Origin: Candidatus Omnitrophota bacterium
GTDB taxonomy: Bacteria; Hinthialibacterota; Hinthialibacteria; Hinthialibacterales; Hinthialibacteraceae
NCBI GenBank assembly: GCA_003598175.1
Contig: QZKN01000181.1
Coordinates: forward strand, 1 to 64,000
Reading direction: 5' to 3'
DNA length: 64,000 bases
In this document: positions 54,017 to 64,000 of the stretch, piece after piece
Layout of the letters: the number at the start of each line of letters is the position of its first letter
How positions within the stretch are numbered: position 1 is the first letter of the stretch
The notes under the pieces: model-generated
What the model was told of the DNA's origin: nothing
Seen by the model: only the letters and a program-made list of their open reading frames with translations
The model's database searches: none
Translations under genes and position numbers: made by a program

Positions 54017-55804
54017 ATGCACATGCAATTAAATGGAATGGACTGGAGCATTATCGTACTGTATTTCATCGTAGTCCTGACGATTGGATTGATTTATGCG
54101 CGCCGGGCGGGGAAGAGCATCGACGAATACTTCGCTTCCGGCCGTTCGTTGCCGTGGTGGATCGTAGGAACCTCGATGGTGGCGACGACGTTCTCCACCG
54201 ACACCCCCAATCTTGTCACCGACATCGTCCGCACCGGCGGCGTGAGTGGAAACTGGGTATGGTGGGCGTTCCTTCTCACCGGGATGTTTACGGTGTTTCT
54301 CTACGCCAAACTGTGGCGGCGTTCCGGCGCACTCACCGATATCGGATTTTACGAATTGCGGTATTCCGGCAAAGAGGCGGCCTTTCTTCGCGGCTTTCGC
54401 TCGCTGTATTTGGGCGTTTTTTTCAACGTGATCGTCATGGCGTCGGTCACGTTGGCGGCGATTAAAATCGGCCATATTCTGTTGGGTGTGGATAAATACG
54501 TCACCGTCATGACCTGCGGTTTGATCACCGTGATTTATTCCTGCACCTCCGGTTTGTGGGGAGTGGTGGTCACCGATTTGTTGCTGTTTATCATTGCAAT
54601 GGTCGGTTCGATCGGCGCCGCTTATTTTTCGTTGTCTCTGCCGCAAGTCGGTGGGCTCTCCGGCCTGTTGAGCCATCCCGAGTTACAGGGGAAATTGAGT
54701 ATCCTGCCCGATTTTTCCAATATGAGCAACGCCATGTACGTCTTTATCGTGCCCTTCGCGGTGCAATGGTGGAGCGTATGGTATCCGGGCGCGGAGCCGG
54801 GCGGCGGCGGGTATATTGCCCAGCGAATGCTCTCGTCGAAAGACGAAAAAAATTCGCTCTTGGCAACTCTTTGGTTCAATGTCGCCCATTATGCCATTCG
54901 GCCTTGGCCATGGATTATTGTCGCTCTCTGTTCGATGGTTGTTTATCCCGAACTGGCTGATCTGAAACAAAAATTCCCGAACGTCGACGATGCGCTCATT
55001 AAAAACGACATGGGCTATCCTGCCATGTTGGTTTTTCTCCCGCATGGGTTTTTGGGATTGGTGATTGCCTCGCTGGCCGCGGCGTATATGTCCACGATCA
55101 GCACCCATTTGAATTGGGGCGCGTCATACGTCATCGACGATTTTTATAAACGATTCCTGAATAAAAACGCAACGGATCATCATTACGTCACCGCGGCGCG
55201 GGTCGTAACATTTTCCTTGATGGTTCTGGCCTGCCTGTTGTCGTTGTGGTTGGAAAATGCGCTGCAGGCCTTCAACATCCTCCTGCAAATCGGCGCCGGG
55301 ACCGGTTTGATCTTTCTCCTGCGCTGGTTCTGGTGGCGGATCAACGCCTGGAGCGAAATTTCCGCCATGATCATTTCGTTTTGCGTCGCGCTTTATTTTG
55401 AATTCTTGCACGTGAAATTTTTCGGATTCGAGCCGTTTGGTCAGCTCGAATCGTGGAAACCGCTGGTGATCGGCGTCTTCATCACGACCGTCACGTGGCT
55501 GCTCGTTACCTTCCTGACCGCGCCCACGGATCGCAAGGTATTGCAGCGATTTTACGATAAAATTCAACCAATGGGCAAAGGCTGGGCGAAAGTAGTCCAA
55601 ACGGGTGATGAAGTCGGAAAAGAAAACCTCTCCGCTTCTTTTCTCTGCATCTTTCTCGGCTGCCTGGCCGTGTACAGCGCCTTGTTCAGCACCGGATTTT
55701 TCCTGTACGGAAATATGCTGCCGGCAATCGTTTTGGCCATAACCTGCATCGTCTCCACCACCGCCATTGTCAAACTTCTCCCCCAAATTCAATGGCGAGG
55801 ATAA
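54017..55804 (+). CDS. Sodium:solute symporter (SSS family)
   Basis: 595 residues with about 13-14 TM helices. The SSS signature is seen in SIDEYFASGRSLPWWIVGTSMVATTFSTDTP (helix 1 to 2, sodium site) and further in GFLGLVIASLAAAYMSTISTHLNWGASYV. The start is ATG 54017 or 54023, with GGGAG just before. Family role: uptake of a sugar or other small solute driven by sodium. It is followed after 31 bases by an FGGY kinase, so the solute is likely a sugar or polyol. Confidence 0.93.
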   Translation: MHMQLNGMDWSIIVLYFIVVLTIGLIYARRAGKSIDEYFASGRSLPWWIVGTSMVATTFSTDTPNLVTDIVRTGGVSGNWVWWAFLLTGMFTVFLYAKLWRRSGALTDIGFYELRYSGKEAAFLRGFRSLYLGVFFNVIVMASVTLAAIKIGHILLGVDKYVTVMTCGLITVIYSCTSGLWGVVVTDLLLFIIAMVGSIGAAYFSLSLPQVGGLSGLLSHPELQGKLSILPDFSNMSNAMYVFIVPFAVQWWSVWYPGAEPGGGGYIAQRMLSSKDEKNSLLATLWFNVAHYAIRPWPWIIVALCSMVVYPELADLKQKFPNVDDALIKNDMGYPAMLVFLPHGFLGLVIASLAAAYMSTISTHLNWGASYVIDDFYKRFLNKNATDHHYVTAARVVTFSLMVLACLLSLWLENALQAFNILLQIGAGTGLIFLLRWFWWRINAWSEISAMIISFCVALYFEFLHVKFFGFEPFGQLESWKPLVIGVFITTVTWLLVTFLTAPTDRKVLQRFYDKIQPMGKGWAKVVQTGDEVGKENLSASFLCIFLGCLAVYSALFSTGFFLYGNMLPAIVLAITCIVSTTAIVKLLPQIQWRG

Positions 55805-55835
55805 AATAAGAGAAATTTTCTCGGAGGTTTCCATC

Positions 55836-57344
55836 ATGAGTTTGTTAGGCATCGACGTCGGCACCACCGGCTGCAAAGCCGTGGCTTTTAATAAAGAAGG
55901 CAAAATTCTATCGTCCGATTACCGCGAGTATCCTCTTCACAGCCCGCAGCCCGGCTGGGCCGAGCTCGACGGCAATCGCGTATGGAACGATATCAAGGCG
56001 TGTCTCGGAAAAGTGGCGGCGGAAACGAAAAACGATCCCATCACCGCTCTCGCCGTCTCCTGCCAGGGCGAGGCGGTTTCCCCCCTCGACGAAAACGGCG
56101 AAATCCTGCACAACGCCCTCGTCAGTTTCGACAACCGCACCGAATCCTACGTCCCGCAATGGGAGGAACGCTTCGGCCGCAAAAAAGTATTCGAAGTGAC
56201 CGGCCAGCCGCTGGCGGCGCTCTTTACCGCACAAAAATTGCAGTGGATCAGGGACAACCGACCGCAGGTTTTACAAAAAGCAAAAGCGATTTTGGGCTTC
56301 GAAGATCTGGTGATGTTCCGTTTGGGAATGCCGCCCACCACCGATTACACCCTCGCTGCGCGCACATTGCTTTTTGACGTGCGTAAAGCGGATTGGTGCG
56401 ACGAGTTTCTGGAATTCGTCGGCATCGATCGCGCCGTGATGCCCGTACCCAAACCTTCGGGAACGGTGGTTGGAACGATTCCCGACAAAATCGCGGACGA
56501 AATCGGCCTGCCCCGTGGCGTGCAGGTCGTGACCGGCGGACATGACCAGCCCTGCCAGACCCTCGGCGCGGGCGTCACCGAAGCCAACGAAGCGTCCTAT
56601 GGCATCGGCACCGTCGAGTGCATCGCTCCCGCCTTTGAAGAACTCCTGCTCAACGACGTGATGCTGTCGAACAATATTTGCTGCTATCATCACACCTGCC
56701 CCGGCTTTTACATCGCGCTGACCTATAATTTAACCGGCGGCAGCCTCTTTCGCTGGTATCGCGATAACTTCGCGCAGGACGAAAACCGCCGCGCGCGGGA
56801 AACCGGCCGCGATGTGTACGATATTCTGACCAGCGAAGCGGCGCAGCAGCCGACCAAGCTGCTCGTCCTGCCCCACTTCACCACCACCGGCGTTCCCCAT
56901 TTCGACACCCATTCGCGCGGCGCGATTCTCGGGCTCACGTTGGGAACCACCAAAGCGGAAGTCACGCGGGCATTATTGGAAGGATTGACATACGAAATGC
57001 GCATGTGTATTGATTTGCTTTATAAAGCCGGCGGCCGAGTGAACAATCTGCGCGCGACCGGCGGCGGCGCGAAATCTCCCTACTGGCTGCAAATCAAAGC
57101 CGATATCATGGGCCTTCCCATCTCCGTTCCCGCCGTTTCCGAAGCCGGCTGCCTCGGCTGCGCCATCCTCGCCGGCTCCGCCACCGGCGTATATGCCTCC
57201 ATCCGCGAAGCCGCCCGCCAACTGGCCCGGATTGAACGCACGTATGAACCACAACCCGAAAATCATAAAATCTACAATGACCGCTTCGTGTTGTATAAAG
57301 AAATCTATCCCAAACTGAACGATCTGTTTCACCGAATGCCCTGA
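55836..57344 (+). CDS. FGGY-family carbohydrate kinase (xylulokinase-like)
   Basis: 502 residues from the ATG preceded by GGAGG at 8 bases. Nucleotide-binding MSLLGIDVGTTGCKAVAF at the N terminus, the catalytic-Asp segment GGHDQPCQTLGAGV at ~235, and GGGAKSPYWLQIKADIMGLPI near the C terminus. Family role: ATP-dependent phosphorylation of a sugar or polyol in the cytoplasm. It shares a transcript with the symporter. Exact substrate unclear. Confidence 0.92.
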   Translation: MSLLGIDVGTTGCKAVAFNKEGKILSSDYREYPLHSPQPGWAELDGNRVWNDIKACLGKVAAETKNDPITALAVSCQGEAVSPLDENGEILHNALVSFDNRTESYVPQWEERFGRKKVFEVTGQPLAALFTAQKLQWIRDNRPQVLQKAKAILGFEDLVMFRLGMPPTTDYTLAARTLLFDVRKADWCDEFLEFVGIDRAVMPVPKPSGTVVGTIPDKIADEIGLPRGVQVVTGGHDQPCQTLGAGVTEANEASYGIGTVECIAPAFEELLLNDVMLSNNICCYHHTCPGFYIALTYNLTGGSLFRWYRDNFAQDENRRARETGRDVYDILTSEAAQQPTKLLVLPHFTTTGVPHFDTHSRGAILGLTLGTTKAEVTRALLEGLTYEMRMCIDLLYKAGGRVNNLRATGGGAKSPYWLQIKADIMGLPISVPAVSEAGCLGCAILAGSATGVYASIREAARQLARIERTYEPQPENHKIYNDRFVLYKEIYPKLNDLFHRMP

Positions 57345-57365
57345 TTGGTTTTTATTTCCTTACAA

Positions 57366-57475
57366 AATGTCCCCTCATCGTCAACGGGGAGGAACCTATT
57401 TCCACCCGTTGACGGGGGGATTAAGGGGGGAGTGAAGCGCACATTTACATTCTTCGTTGTGACCAATTGGTCATG
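57366..57475. repeat. CCGTCAACGGGG inverted-repeat element, copy 3
   Basis: CGTCAACGGGG (57379-57389) and CCCGTTGACGG (57405-57415), followed by GGGGGGATTAAGGGGGGAG and the tail TTCGTTGTGACCAATTGGTC, closely matching the copy at 44136 (its tail differs in the last bases). It ends just before the ribosome site of the YgiT-like gene. Confidence 0.7.
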
Positions 57476-57501
57476 TGGGGAAATAAGTTAACGGAGGACG
57501 C

Positions 57502-57723
57502 ATGATTTGTGAGTTTTGTGGCGGTAATACCTTTAAAAAGAAAGTTAAAAAACAGCATTGGCTTCGTGGAGAACTTTATATCGTGGAAAATGTCGAGGCC
57601 GAAGTTTGCGCGGAATGTGGAGAACGCTACTTTCATGCATCAATTCTTGACGAACTGGATGGCTATCTTTCAGCCGAACATGACGTCAAAGAAAAGATTC
57701 AAGTGGAGATTGTGAATTTGTAA
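57502..57723 (+). CDS. YgiT-type zinc-finger protein (MqsA-like antitoxin half)
   Basis: 73 residues; GGAGG lies 5 bases before the ATG. Two CxxC pairs, CEFCGG at ~3-6 and CAECGE at ~37-40, form the YgiT zinc ribbon. Residues ~50-73 are acidic and helical. The C-terminal HTH of full MqsA is missing, which is usual for the stand-alone YgiT family. No companion toxin (MqsR or DUF4258-type) is adjacent; the upstream sequence is a palindromic repeat. It may be an orphan antitoxin or a regulator. Confidence 0.75.
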   Translation: MICEFCGGNTFKKKVKKQHWLRGELYIVENVEAEVCAECGERYFHASILDELDGYLSAEHDVKEKIQVEIVNL

Positions 57724-57735
57724 CGTGGAAAACCG

Positions 57736-59193
57736 TTATGACAGTTTCCTTTTTAATGTTTGTAGCGCATTCAAAGCCCGATGACGCGCGAAACTGTGAT
57801 CCACAATCGGAAAAGGGTAATCCTTCCCCAAATTAATTCCCGCGTGCGTCAATACGTCAGCGGAAGCAGTCCAAGGCTCGTGAATCCATTTGTTCGGCAG
57901 CTCGGAAAGTTCCGGAATCCAGCGACGAATATACGATCCATTCGCATCGAATTTCCTGCTTTGTAAAACCGGATTGAAAATACGAAAGAAAGGTGCGGCG
58001 TCCGCGCCACAGCCTGCCGACCATTGCCATCCCATCGTGTTGTTGGCCAAATCCGCATCCACCAGTGTGTCCCAAAACCAGGCGGCGCCTTCCTGCCACG
58101 GGATTAACAAATCTTTGACTAAAAAAGAGGCGACGATCATGCGTACGCGATTGTGCATCCATCCCGTATGCCACAATTCCCTCATTCCCGCATCGACGAT
58201 GGGGTAGCCGGTCAATCCTTTTTGCCATGCCCGTAGGTTTTGGGTTTCATTTTTCCACGGAAACCGCTCGAAATCGGTGCGCAGTGGTTTGTCGGGAGTA
58301 TGGGGAAAATGAAAGAGAAGATGATGGGCAAATTCCCGCCAACCGATTTCGCGTAAATACGCCCATATCTCGTTTGAACGCTGCGCCGCTGAATGCAAAC
58401 GCTCGGATTCTCGCAATGCATACCAGATTTGCCGCGGGCTGATTTCCCCTGCATGAAGATGCGGGGACAAACGCGAAGTTCCGATGACCGCGGGGAAATC
58501 ACGATCTTTCGAATAAGCATCGATGGCGGAGGATATAAACCGTTGTAGATGTGTTTGTGCTCCTTTTTCTCCTGGTTGCCAGGTCTCCCGAATCCCATCC
58601 GTCCAATCCACTTTTGGCAACAGTCTCAATTCATGAACATCCAATGAATGCGGCCATTGTAATGGGGGAGGCAGGATTTTTGGAACGGGCAACGGCTTGG
58701 ACGGTTCGGGAAACAATTTGCAGGCTTCCCAAAAGCGAGTGAACACTTGAAAAGGAGTTCCCGATTTGGTTTTGACCTCCCACGGCTCGTAAAGTAAGGA
58801 GCCATTAAAGGTTTTGACTTCGATTCCGGTTTCGCGCAGAGCCGTTTTTATGGCTGTATCGTGTTGGATAGAGTCCGGCTCATATCGTCGGTTCCAATAA
58901 ACGGAGTCGGCGTTGGTTTCCTCGATCAGTTGTTTCAGGACGGACAGCGCCTGGCCGCGACGTATGATCAGTTGTGATTTTTTTGCGGCAAGTTCCTTTT
59001 GCATTTGGATGAGGGAGTGATGAAGCCAAACGCGGCTTGCCGCGCCGGGATTCCAAACTCCCTTTTTTTCCACTTCCCAAATAAAGACGGGAATAATGGA
59101 TTTCCCGCGTTCGATGGCGTGATGGAGGGGAGGATGATCCTCTAACCGCATATCCTGACGGAACCAAACGAGCGTTGTATGATGATTATCCAT
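57736..59193 (-). CDS. phr: Deoxyribodipyrimidine photolyase
   Basis: 485 residues from [19 protein letters not shown] (AGGAAAG upstream); the 38 extra codons in frame cover a small hairpin repeat. Antenna domain ~7-160. The FAD domain has [24 protein letters not shown] and [25 protein letters not shown], the class I CPD-photolyase motifs. Role: light-dependent repair of pyrimidine dimers, so the organism or its relatives meet light. It is convergent with YgiT, 12 bases apart. Confidence 0.95.
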
Positions 59194-59286
59194 TGCTTTC
59201 CTGTTGTTCGTTTTCCGGAAGTGTACTTTTTGTTTGGAGAAACAACAGGGAATACAGAAATTGGACGGAAATCCATCATTCGAAAT

Positions 59287-59303
59287 GCAAGCGGGATGCT
59301 TGC
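59287..59303. repeat. Small hairpin GCAAGC-GGGAT-GCTTGC
   Basis: A perfect 6-base stem with a 5-base loop, between photolyase and csaA, resembling one arm of the family A repeats. Confidence 0.5.
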
Positions 59304-59337
59304 TCAACCTTTATTTTTTAATGTGGAGACGGTTTTT

Positions 59338-59673
59338 ATGAGCACGATCAGTTGGAACGATTTTGAACAAGTGGAAATACGCGTGGGCACAATAGTCAAA
59401 GTCGAGGAATTTTCCAAGGCGCGAAAGCCTGCCTATAAAATTTGGGTGGATTTCGGTGAAATCGGTGTAAAACAATCGAGCGCGCAGATAACGAAATTAT
59501 ATACAAAAGAGGAATTGTTTGATCGGCAGGTGATTTGCGTCGTCAACTTCCCGCCGAAAAAGGTTGCCGATTTTGTTTCGGAGATATTAATCACCGGTTT
59601 TGTGTTGGAAAATGAGGAAGTTGTGTTGGCGCAGCCGGAACGTCGGGTTCCGAATGGGCTGCGATTGGCTTGA
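59338..59673 (+). CDS. csaA: CsaA-type tRNA-binding/chaperone protein
   Basis: 111 residues from [20 protein letters not shown] (GGAG 9 bases upstream). OB-fold tRNA-binding domain: [32 protein letters not shown] and [24 protein letters not shown]. The length equals the family norm. Family knowledge: small secretion-linked chaperone with tRNA-binding fold. The longer open frame covers the promoter side of photolyase and is not credible. Confidence 0.9.
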
Positions 59674-59846: not shown

Positions 59847-60380
59847 TTATTCCGACTCTGATGCAACCTTCAAATTCTTGATCTCGTCGGGCAATTCCAC
59901 GAATTGATCCACCAATCCCAGGCTTTGAATGACGTGGCCGGCGAGTTGTATGAGTCCGCGCGGCAGGCATACATCCACTTCATGGCCCTGTTCTTGCCCT
60001 TCCTTGACATGGACTTTGAAGAAATCCAGATCTTCCACATTTTCGGGTTTGGCTTCTTCGATCCAGATTCGTACGTTGTCCCGACCCGACACCCGAACCA
60101 GATCCTTGCCTTCCATTTTTTTCAGTTCGGCGAGAATCTGTTCCGGTTTCAACTTCAGTTCCTTGCACAATTCCTTGATTTCTTTCGGCATCACGTTGTA
60201 CAACGTGTCCAGCAGTGTGAGCGGCGCGGTGACTTGCACGTGTTCTCCATGTTCGGTTTTGACTTCCACCCGCAGAAAACTGTTCTCTGCGACGGGCTCC
60301 GCCGACACATCGTACATTACGATACAAATCAGAAACGCCAATAGTCCCAATAATACTCCTGCCTTTGTGATTTTCATCAT
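59847..60380 (-). CDS. Exported protein of unknown function
   Basis: 177 residues from Met 60380 (GGAGG 8 bases upstream). A signal peptide (~9-26, LLGLLAFLICIVMYDVSA) ends near AEPVA. The mature part is acidic and helical, with VTAPLTLLDTLYNVMPKEIKELCKEL and paired strands (RVSGRDNVRIWIEEAKP, VHVKEGQEQGHEVDVCLPRG). The repeated pattern of basic strand then acidic helix suggests two related halves. No family recognised. It has its own terminator, so it is a single-gene unit. Confidence 0.7.
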   Translation of the reverse strand: MMKITKAGVLLGLLAFLICIVMYDVSAEPVAENSFLRVEVKTEHGEHVQVTAPLTLLDTLYNVMPKEIKELCKELKLKPEQILAELKKMEGKDLVRVSGRDNVRIWIEEAKPENVEDLDFFKVHVKEGQEQGHEVDVCLPRGLIQLAGHVIQSLGLVDQFVELPDEIKNLKVASESE

Positions 60381-60510
60381 CTTACGATCCTCCATCGATT
60401 TGATTGAATCCGGATTCCTGATCTTCTGTTGTTACCTATACGGAAAGCAGGGGGAAAAATTTCAAAAAAAAGCGAGAGATTATTTTGGGAGAATGAGACG
60501 GGATGCGATG

Positions 60511-61221
60511 TCAGAATTCGGATAACGTTTTTTTAAGGCTTTCAACGATTCCCTTTTGAACTTGTTTCCACTGTGAGGATTGATCGAGAACATGCTTTTG
60601 ATTGATTTCCAACTCAATGCCGACGTACTGCTTAGCGGAGAATATTTCTCGTAAATGGCTGGAAAAACCATCCGCTACGCCGAGATAAGGATAATTCCGC
60701 CGAATAGTCCAACTGGGGTACATCGTCTCCAGCACGCTTTTCCACATGTGGCAGAATTGTTTTTCGAGAGGGCGGCGGGGAGAGTAAAGGATTCCGATAT
60801 CGGCTTTTCGCGTGCTTTTGTTCAAAATGGGAGTGAAGGAATGCACGCCGATGTGCAGCGCCGGTTTTTGTGATTCAACCAGTTTGTGAATGGTGGATTC
60901 TACCTGCTGGCGTTGCGGATAATAATACGTATGCAGGATTTTAAATCGTTCGGCGGAGGAAATATCTCTCGTGATGAAGGAAAAAATATCCGGATGGGTG
61001 ATGGAGCGATTCAAATCGATCAGCAAACGACTGATGGTGGAGTGGATGAACGGGGCGTGAAATTCCTTGGCCAGTTTTTTCGCCAATTCGAGTGCGCCGG
61101 CGTCGTAACCCAGATGGCTTTGTAACTCCTCTTCATGTCCGGCGAAATAGGAGGAATAGGGCTCGGGAATTTGATTGCCGCCGTGTTCACAAGTGAAAAT
61201 GAGTTGATAACGTTCAGTCAA
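60511..61221 (-). CDS. N-formylglutamate amidohydrolase family protein
   Basis: 236 residues from a TTG at 61221, preceded by AAGGAAG. This start overlaps the GCS2 stop by 8 bases, consistent with the rest of the operon. FGase motifs: FTCEHGGNQIP, LGYDAGALELA, LLIDLNRS, and GVHSFTPI with the metal His. Family knowledge: hydrolyses N-formyl- or N-acyl-amino acids. Here it probably removes a blocking group or hydrolyses the product made by the two ligases of the operon. Substrate unknown. Confidence 0.88.
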   Translation of the reverse strand: MTERYQLIFTCEHGGNQIPEPYSSYFAGHEEELQSHLGYDAGALELAKKLAKEFHAPFIHSTISRLLIDLNRSITHPDIFSFITRDISSAERFKILHTYYYPQRQQVESTIHKLVESQKPALHIGVHSFTPILNKSTRKADIGILYSPRRPLEKQFCHMWKSVLETMYPSWTIRRNYPYLGVADGFSSHLREIFSAKQYVGIELEINQKHVLDQSSQWKQVQKGIVESLKKTLSEF

Positions 61222-62461
61222 GGTACATTCTTCCTTCTGCCAGGCATGCGCTGAGTTCATCAAGCAGGGCAAACAGTGAAGATTTATTGATTTCACCGTT
61301 TACGCGGCGGAGAATTCGGCGAGATAATGATCCATGCCGTAAAATGATTTGTAAGGGTTGGGCGAAATGACGAACTTCATTGGGCCGCAACTGCTCCATT
61401 TTCTCATAAAGATGATACCACAATTCCGCAGCGGTGCACGATTTTTTTTCGTGGTATCCGAACAGGTTTAAATAGCGATCGTCCCGTACGACCGCAGCGT
61501 CCGCGAGTTGAATGGTTTCCGCCAGAATCGGCTCCAACGATTCGGTCGGCCATGCCTGTTGATCTTTTGTTGAAGTCCATCGCTCTTCGCATAGCGCCTG
61601 CAGTGTGGAGGTAATGAGCCAGAGGATCGCCAAATCCGCCTGTGGACATTCCTGAATATCCAACACTCGAATTTCAATCGCATGACGGTCGAATCGGGCA
61701 ATGGCTCCGCGCGCGTTCAGCCATTCGTGCTGTAAAATCCCGTCCGGATCGAACGGCGCGATATCCGCATACATTCGCTGAAAAATTTCCCGCTCATAAT
61801 CGCGGAATTGAAAGACGGGTTCGGGAATAACCTTGCCGGTGATGGAAGGAATGCGACTGGAGTTGGCGCGATAATAATGCATCCGGTTGTTGTATATGCC
61901 GGTCGCGCGGGATTCCACGATGGGACTGCTTGCCGCCAGCGCGGGCATGATGGGGAGCAGTACGCGAATCGCGGCGTGAAGCCGTCCGAATTCATCCTCG
62001 CCGGCAAAGGGGAGATTCAAATGAACGCTTTGCAGATTCGACCACCCGTGGCCGCGGCAATTGAATATTTTGTTATACATCTCATAAACGATGTTGTAAT
62101 CGTGTGGCCACAAACGGGTTTCCGTGTCGGGATTCATCCACGGGTGCATGGCGGTGGGGAGAAGAAGACCGCCGAGTGGTTTCAAAATGGCGTTGATTTC
62201 ACGGACATGATTGTGGAAGATGTCGGAAAGTCCGATAAAGGATGTTGCCGGGCCGTTGGTTTTCAACTCGACAACATGCAAAACCAATTCATTGGACCAA
62301 CAGAGTTTGCCTCGTTCGATTTCTGATTCGTATGCGCCCGCCACGGCATGGATGAGCCGGTCCGCAATCGGTAGAATGGCAAACGTGTCTCGATCGACAA
62401 TCATATATTCCAATTCGACGCCGAATCCTTTGAAAAGATGCAGGGATGGCGGCGTCTCCAT
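61214..62461 (-). CDS. GCS2-type (YbdK-like) carboxylate-amine ligase
   Basis: 415 residues. Glutamate-cysteine-ligase family 2 features: GVELEYMIVD (metal Glu), ELKTNGP, HVHLN-like SVHLNLPFAGEDEF, and IEIRVLDIQECP. Family knowledge: ATP-dependent formation of an amide bond between an acidic side chain or carboxylate and an amine. It starts on the last base of the RimK-like gene's stop (TGATG). With RimK upstream and FGase downstream it forms a compact peptide or amide synthesis operon. Confidence 0.9.
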   Translation of the reverse strand: METPPSLHLFKGFGVELEYMIVDRDTFAILPIADRLIHAVAGAYESEIERGKLCWSNELVLHVVELKTNGPATSFIGLSDIFHNHVREINAILKPLGGLLLPTAMHPWMNPDTETRLWPHDYNIVYEMYNKIFNCRGHGWSNLQSVHLNLPFAGEDEFGRLHAAIRVLLPIMPALAASSPIVESRATGIYNNRMHYYRANSSRIPSITGKVIPEPVFQFRDYEREIFQRMYADIAPFDPDGILQHEWLNARGAIARFDRHAIEIRVLDIQECPQADLAILWLITSTLQALCEERWTSTKDQQAWPTESLEPILAETIQLADAAVVRDDRYLNLFGYHEKKSCTAAELWYHLYEKMEQLRPNEVRHFAQPLQIILRHGSLSRRILRRVNGEINKSSLFALLDELSACLAEGRMYLD

Positions 62462-63930
62462 CAGAATGATTTCCTCTCTTTGCGTTGTTCGATGCGCTTC
62501 AGGAAGACGGTCATGATTTTCATATAGAGTTCATCTTTCAGCATGGCGTCTTCAAAACCGGCGTCGATGCTGGGATTGTCGTTGATTTCAATGACGAAGA
62601 CTTTGCGTCCAACCTGTTTGAGGTCCACGCCATACAATCCATCGCCGATCGCATTGGCCGCTTTCAACGCGGTTTTCACGACGGCTTCGGGGGCGGCTTC
62701 GACGCGCAGGGTGTCCACATGGCCATATTCCGTATCTCCGTTCGATTCGTGTTTCATGATTTGCCAATGCTCTTTGGCCATATGATATTTGCAGACGTAA
62801 AGCGGATAGCGATCAAAAATGCCGACGCGCCAGTCGAACGGAGTCGGCAAGAATTCCTGGGCAATGATCAGATCGGATTTATCCAATAGTTTTTCCACGT
62901 ATTCGTTCAAATCGGCTTCATTTTCAGCTTTGTAGACGCCTTGTGAAAAATAACTGTCGGGTTTTTTCACGATACAGGGCAAGCCGATCCGCTGCAGGAT
63001 TTGATTGATATTGTCGCGGTGAACAATCAGCGTTTTGGGGCCGGGGATGTGATACCGTTCCATCAATTCGGCCAGAAACACTTTGTTCGTACATTTTTCG
63101 ATGGAGTTTGGATCGTCGACAACGACCAGTCCTTCCGCCGCCGCTCGCCGCGAAAAGCGATAGGTGTGATGGTTGACGTTGGTGGTTTCTCGAATAAATA
63201 ACGCGTCGAACTGTGGCAGACGCCCAAAATCCTCCTTTTTGATCAGCTCCACTCCCATTTCCAGCCGGCGGGCGGCTTTCATGAATTTCTGCAGAGCTTT
63301 TTCATTGGATGGTGGATTCTCGTCCTGTGGATTATACAGGATGGCCATGTCATACCGAGGGATGAATCGTTTGGGGACGTGAAATCGATTGGAAGCGAAG
63401 TATTCTTCGGCTACCTGGATCACAAAAAGATAATGCTCTTCCGGAATCTCCTTTGCGGATATGGGATTGATGGTTTGCAATCGCCACTGCTCGTCGGAAT
63501 AGCGGAATTCGGCGCGCAGAAAAGGCACCTGAAACAAATTGAAAAGATGGCCGGAAAGGCGATCATAACGTTTGGCGAGATTCTTGCCGAAATAAATGCT
63601 GAGAGTGAAACTTTCGGATTGAATGGGCTTCATACTTTTTTGAATCAGTTCATCCAATTCGTCCGAAACCAGCCGGATGATCACATTGGATTTCATATCT
63701 TGAATGTTTTCAACGCTGGGAATCGGTTTGTGGCCTCTCGCCGAAGCCAGGAGCGACACATAATAGCCGATGCTTTGATAACGGTATGAACGGCAGAGAT
63801 TGAAAACCCGCACGTTGCGCATGTCGCTGTATTGCGGATCGGTTAAGTAGGAACGGGCGGAAACCACTTTGACGTCGGCAATATATAAAGGCCAGTATTT
63901 GGGTTGGTTGACAACAATTAACGTGGGCAT
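62461..63930 (-). CDS. RimK-type ATP-grasp ligase with N-terminal domain
   Basis: 489 residues. The N-terminal ~190 residues form a domain of unknown role seen in RimK-like proteins of this type (LIVVNQPKYWPLYIADVKVV). The ATP-grasp part (~200-485) has NKVFLAELMERYHIPGPKTLIV, GLPCIVKKPDSYFSQGVYK (ATP-binding Lys), LIIAQEFLPTPFDWRVGIFD and VFVIEINDNPSIDAG with the Mg-binding Glu-Asn pair. Family role: adds Glu or another amino acid to a carboxylate. It begins at ATG 63930 with AAGGT 8 bases upstream and leads the operon. Confidence 0.9.
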   Translation of the reverse strand: MPTLIVVNQPKYWPLYIADVKVVSARSYLTDPQYSDMRNVRVFNLCRSYRYQSIGYYVSLLASARGHKPIPSVENIQDMKSNVIIRLVSDELDELIQKSMKPIQSESFTLSIYFGKNLAKRYDRLSGHLFNLFQVPFLRAEFRYSDEQWRLQTINPISAKEIPEEHYLFVIQVAEEYFASNRFHVPKRFIPRYDMAILYNPQDENPPSNEKALQKFMKAARRLEMGVELIKKEDFGRLPQFDALFIRETTNVNHHTYRFSRRAAAEGLVVVDDPNSIEKCTNKVFLAELMERYHIPGPKTLIVHRDNINQILQRIGLPCIVKKPDSYFSQGVYKAENEADLNEYVEKLLDKSDLIIAQEFLPTPFDWRVGIFDRYPLYVCKYHMAKEHWQIMKHESNGDTEYGHVDTLRVEAAPEAVVKTALKAANAIGDGLYGVDLKQVGRKVFVIEINDNPSIDAGFEDAMLKDELYMKIMTVFLKRIEQRKERKSF

Positions 63931-64000
63931 GAGATCGACCTTTTTCGAGAAGGGGGGGTAAGTATCAACAAATTCGCGTCGTATGTCAGCACGCCCAACA

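Follow-up and report, generated by a model that had tools for sequence, protein, structure and literature searches.

A recurrent bacterial gene block encoding a C39-like peptidase, an RLAN-RimK ligase, a GCS2-family ligase and an FGase-family hydrolase

At the end of the window, the 64,000-nucleotide stretch of Candidatus Omnitrophota DNA that was analysed, lies a four-gene operon whose carriers span about 13 phyla among the best 80 of at least 545 relatives. The operon encodes two ligases (an RLAN-RimK ATP-grasp protein and a GCS2-family protein) together with a C39-like cysteine peptidase and an FGase-family hydrolase. All four families are already known. Judged from sequence, it is moderately probable that the operon is responsible for the synthesis and turnover of a small cytoplasmic peptide or amide, acidic in nature and probably containing glutamate. 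An uncharacterised block that combines synthetic with hydrolytic enzymes and is carried by about 13 phyla is a clear target in the search for an overlooked bacterial metabolite. Since the carriers include cultured bacteria (Blastopirellula marina, Pontibacter, Adhaeribacter, and Desulfatitalea), the question of what the operon does is directly testable.

Layout and recurrence of the operon

The initial annotation described three open reading frames at this locus, with overlaps of 1 and 8 bases and a TTG start, and all of these are present (Table 1). The RLAN-RimK and GCS2 genes share 1 base (TGATG), the GCS2 stop and the FGase start overlap by 8 bases (TTGACTGA), and a purine-rich GAAGGAAG lies just upstream of the FGase TTG start. 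A GTG start for the FGase gene at 61296 was rejected, as it reflects only the mechanical longest open reading frame and homologues (the Legionella FGase) begin near the TTG. It had been asked whether the set includes a fourth conserved gene. It does: the gene for the C39-like peptidase lies directly upstream of the RLAN-RimK gene and overlaps its start by 13 bases. The peptidase gene was missed earlier because only its last 83 bases (63918-64000) fall within the window, the rest lying beyond the window end.

Table 1. Genes of the operon, with coordinates in the window
Feature	Position	Strand	Details
FGase-family (N-formylglutamate amidohydrolase-like) hydrolase	60511-61221	minus	236 aa, TTG start; Pfam FGase 5.4e-22
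GCS2-family carboxylate-amine ligase, distinct clade	61214-62461	minus	415 aa, ATG start; Pfam GCS2 4.9e-24
RLAN + RimK-like ATP-grasp amidoligase	62461-63930	minus	489 aa, ATG; Pfam RLAN 3.1e-52, RimK 3.7e-08
C39-like (papain-like) cysteine peptidase	63918-64652 window-equivalent (L008 7919-8653)	minus	244 aa; Peptidase_C39_2 3.8e-10

Directly downstream of the FGase gene and on the same strand, positions 59847-60395 (minus) encode a small protein that seems to carry a signal peptide. This protein matched no Pfam family above the cut-off and does not recur near the operon in relatives. The neighbouring genes at 55767-59673 encode an FGGY sugar kinase, a DNA photolyase, and a tRNA-binding-domain protein and are unrelated to the operon.

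Comparison across genomes establishes the order of the genes, their co-occurrence, and their co-inheritance. Relatives were found by using this GCS2 clade to scan 84,980 species genomes and were thus chosen on GCS2 alone. At least 545 were found; neighbourhoods were counted in the best 80, with denominators being the loci that have enough flanking sequence. Among these best 80 of at least 545, the RLAN-RimK gene lies upstream of GCS2 in 69/74 loci (56/61 without Pontibacter), the peptidase gene lies upstream in 67/74 (54/61 without Pontibacter), and the FGase gene lies downstream of GCS2 in 53/70 (40/57 without Pontibacter). In the same sample, 35 of 75 loci have a RimK-to-GCS2 spacing of -4, and 20 of 56 have a GCS2-to-FGase spacing of -7, -8 or -4. 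The phyla represented include Planctomycetota, Thermodesulfobacteriota, Myxococcota, Bacteroidota, Pseudomonadota, Verrucomicrobiota, Acidobacteriota, and Hydrogenedentota. Legionella adelaidensis also has the RimK-GCS2-FGase order, and peptidase homologues occupy the same position in related genomes that carry RimK.

Within the window's phylum, 6 of 14 genomes have RLAN, and the same 6 have this GCS2; the GCS2 of the operon is the sole GCS2-family protein that the window's genome encodes. Of 229 gammaproteobacterial genomes drawn, 50 had RLAN; 13 of those had this GCS2 as well, and the two genes were directly adjacent in 11 of the 13. Chance adjacency was rejected on the counts for RimK and the peptidase, the shared genomes within the phylum, and the adjacency in the Gammaproteobacteria. 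The overlaps and the TTG start had been read as signs of a single stable unit, a claim that would have fallen had the genes rarely been neighbours elsewhere; the order is kept in 69/74 loci and about 13 phyla, so the claim clearly stands.

When Pontibacter is left out, the four proteins have correlated distance matrices (r 0.60-0.79), and 0 of 999 permutations gave values as high. Such correlations are what a jointly inherited unit would give, though shared species history contributes to them. The tree intermixes phyla, which hints at transfer of the block without proving it. When the RimK protein was used as the only query, the scan of species genomes gave no match (the query was too specific). 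No relatives were found in viral contigs, phage records gave weak ATP-grasp-only matches and nothing more, and the operon genes are not among the listed defence genes. No fifth gene recurs near the operon across genera in the loci that were read.

The two ligases

Each of the four proteins belongs to its family and has an intact predicted active site. The GCS2 ligase scores 85.6 bits against Pfam PF04107 (cut-off 21), and its motifs align with those of YbdK and plant glutamate-cysteine ligase. E16, E18, E58, E65, C135, H138, Q144, and H147 are invariant in 46 homologues, as is an F-x-C-x-G-H-G-W motif that is peculiar to this clade. The protein falls far below the NCBIfam models for glutamate-cysteine ligase and YbdK (cut-offs 176-437), none of which it reaches; its best score is 39.5 bits against a cut-off of 371.

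The RLAN-RimK protein is likewise placed by Pfam in the RLAN (PF14401; 176.6 bits, cut-off 25) and RimK-like (33.6 bits, cut-off 21) families. Its best NCBIfam score is 58.8 bits against a cut-off of 350, and it does not reach the RimK subfamily model TIGR00768 (57.4 versus 143.4 bits). The ATP and magnesium residues are kept in 54/54 homologues, in which K283, K322, R247, R368, D436, E448, N450, and N452 are invariant. The structure of the protein, modelled with alignment rows drawn from genome loci only, was predicted with a mean pLDDT of 89, and the predicted ATP-grasp domain best fits ArgX, LysX, and RimK structures (Z 28.6-26.6).

ArgX and LysX, which are amino-group-protecting ligases, are the top matches and the closest solved structures to this domain (Z about 28). 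They raise the possibility of synthesis on a LysW-type carrier, in which RLAN-RimK would act like ArgX or LysX and feed the synthesis of arginine or an amino acid related to it. Arginine genes do adjoin the operon, or its GNAT variant (described below), in Pontibacter and some Gammaproteobacteria; however, no arginine neighbours were seen in the other phyla that carry the four-gene type. The operon ligase also differs from ArgX and LysX in having an RLAN domain and in being encoded in a different operon. This explanation is all but ruled out, as 24 of 25 operon genomes, that of the window included, have no LysW at the cut-off.

In Pseudomonas aeruginosa RimK, poly-glutamate is contacted by S7, R8, S14, R64, S68, R189, and N262 (PMC10092738). 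R64, R189, and N262 align with the invariant R247, R368, and N450 of RLAN-RimK, and K141, which contacts ADP, is also kept. By hand alignment, S14 probably corresponds to S208, and R8 is not kept, its position being N or D in most homologues. The structural fit and the kept RimK residues favour the view that one substrate of the predicted ligase is an acidic amino acid; since R8 is not kept, that substrate is not simply poly-glutamate. The view of the initial annotation that the locus holds two amide-forming ligases is borne out in part, with the RimK domain keeping three poly-glutamate-contacting residues; both ligases may use acidic amino acids, as that annotation also proposed.

The two hydrolases and the proposed pathway

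The peptidase scores 40.9 bits against Peptidase_C39_2 (cut-off 24), which places it among the C39-like enzymes, and Gln13, Cys19, His175, and Asp193 are invariant in 55 homologues. Its structure was predicted with a mean pLDDT of 92. The best fold matches of the model are enzymes that act on glutathione, double-glycine leader peptides, and isopeptides. Among them is the glutathione-bound primitive phytochelatin synthase Alr0975 (Z 17.6 over 161 residues), which is tied with the C39 domains of ComA and PCAT (Z 17.5 and 17.2). The Alr0975 match therefore does not discriminate, and no Phytochelatin Pfam match was listed for the peptidase at E 0.1.

Glutathione synthesis (a GCS2-type GshA with GshB) taken together with Alr0975 is a known case of a GCS2 ligase, an ATP-grasp ligase, and a papain-like enzyme working on one small peptide. 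By the same enzyme logic, the GCS2 ligase of the operon could form a gamma-glutamyl dipeptide and the ATP-grasp ligase a tripeptide, which the peptidase would cleave or transpeptidate in the manner of a primitive phytochelatin synthase. The fit of the peptidase model to Alr0975 is in keeping with such a pathway, as is the lack of a true GshB in the window's genome (59.6 versus 299 bits). We nevertheless consider this pathway quite improbable. The peptidase fits the ComA and PCAT domains equally well, the ATP-grasp domain fits ArgX, LysX, and RimK better than GshB (Z 28.6 versus 22.9), and there is no evidence of cysteine as a substrate. The sequences of the operon are far from the GshA, YbdK, and GshB models, and the FGase is additional to the glutathione enzymes. 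A true GshB is also present in 3 of 25 operon genomes, and the operon is thus not a simple glutathione substitute.

The FGase-family hydrolase scores 79.5 bits against Pfam PF05013 (cut-off 28.9), and H123, H127, R65, N71, R72, R138, R191, E203, and E205 are invariant in 34 homologues. It is closest to 2odf (1.8e-38), a structure deposited as a hypothetical protein. No NCBIfam family, including the HutG-type N-formylglutamate deformylase, matched it at E 0.01. The family names are right; with scores far below the NCBIfam cut-offs or no match at all, no specific enzyme name is justified for these proteins.

In the favoured reading given at the outset, the GCS2 ligase would activate a glutamate-like side-chain carboxylate as an acyl-phosphate and join it to an amine. 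RLAN-RimK would then add an acidic amino acid to the product in the manner of RimK or ArgX. The peptidase may cleave or exchange an unusual amide bond, and the FGase may serve recycling or proofreading by hydrolysing an N-acyl glutamate. This is also the presumed direction of flux through the pathway. More tentatively, and with considerable doubt, the product could be a small bacterial peptide that has so far gone unrecognised, a cofactor, osmolyte or redox buffer of glutathione-like or gamma-glutamyl type that is made in at least a dozen phyla and has its own dedicated hydrolases.

Related systems and variants

Neighbourhoods of this general kind have a history. Iyer et al. 2009 (Mol. BioSyst. 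5:1636) is said to be the founding comparative-genomics study of ATP-grasp/peptidase amidoligase neighbourhoods and reportedly also introduced the RLAN domain. A literature search, whose scope did not include the text of Iyer et al. 2009, found no paper describing the three- or four-gene set.

In many Gammaproteobacteria and Azospirillum, RLAN-RimK is paired with a GNAT-C39 fusion (DUF3335). The RLAN-RimK proteins of such pairs in Azospirillum, Pseudomonas, and Tistrella are homologous to that of the operon (42-50% identity), and in most pairs the C39-like peptidase adjoins RLAN-RimK, as it does in the operon. The pairs differ from the operon in that the peptidase is fused to an acetyltransferase and no GCS2 or FGase gene adjoins. 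The RLAN-RimK ligase therefore does not need GCS2 and FGase, and the C39-like peptidase, being present in both system types, is its steady partner. PMC10318531 cites Iyer et al. 2009 for the idea that GNAT-C39 proteins may be peptide ligases.

A ligase with a peptidase as its steady partner recalls RimK, which extends ribosomal protein S6 and is opposed by the peptidase RimB (PMC10092738, PMC12239564). Both RimK and the operon ligase are ATP-grasp enzymes with common catalytic and glutamate-contacting residues, and both are paired with a peptidase. The operon might thus serve reversible tagging, with RLAN-RimK adding residues to a protein or carrier, the peptidase removing them, and the GCS2 ligase supplying or capping the tag. 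RLAN-RimK adjoins a C39-like peptidase with or without GCS2, and its RLAN domain could recognise a protein. Tagging is nonetheless unlikely. By score RLAN-RimK is not an S6 ligase (20.7 bits against a cut-off of 331 for the equivalog NF007764), and no small conserved precursor or carrier open reading frame was found within 1.5 kb outside single genera. The GCS2 enzymes with established functions are known to use small molecules as substrates, which also counts against tagging. The operon ligase has an N-terminal RLAN domain that RimK lacks, and the operon adds GCS2 and FGase. The two peptidases have unrelated folds, that of the operon being papain-like whereas RimB is a retropepsin.

The gene set of the operon varies among its carriers. 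The core is the peptidase-RimK-GCS2 set, of which GCS2 defines the four-gene type; the FGase gene is absent beside the operon in 17/70 loci and is therefore accessory. GCS2 occurs without RimK nearby in 5/74 loci. Five planctomycete loci (L037, L047, L053, L060, and L093) have a GCS2 of this clade without RimK or peptidase nearby, one of them with FGase only.

In Pontibacter (L046, L049, L070, and others) the operon adjoins the arginine genes argF, argB, argE, and argH. The GNAT-C39/RLAN-RimK variant adjoins argE, with argA or argG in addition, in several Gammaproteobacteria (L121, L123, L124, L127, L128, and L118). This adjacency could hint at acyl-glutamate metabolism, or it could be coincidental and due to vertical inheritance. 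It is not used as an argument here because, outside Pontibacter, only some of the Gammaproteobacteria that carry the GNAT variant show it.

Two loci carry a damaged-looking operon (L012, at G004:C51:24927-26165, and L009, at G010:C101), the signs of damage being an in-frame TAG in GCS2, and a shortened RimK together with a truncated peptidase; the damage reflects either decay or draft-assembly errors. Two further records are filed as plasmids but have the look of chromosomes: one is a Legionella record of 9 kb that carries dapF and fur (L016, NZ_LR134436.1), the other an Aeromonas record of 4.9 Mb (L019, NZ_AP026896.1).
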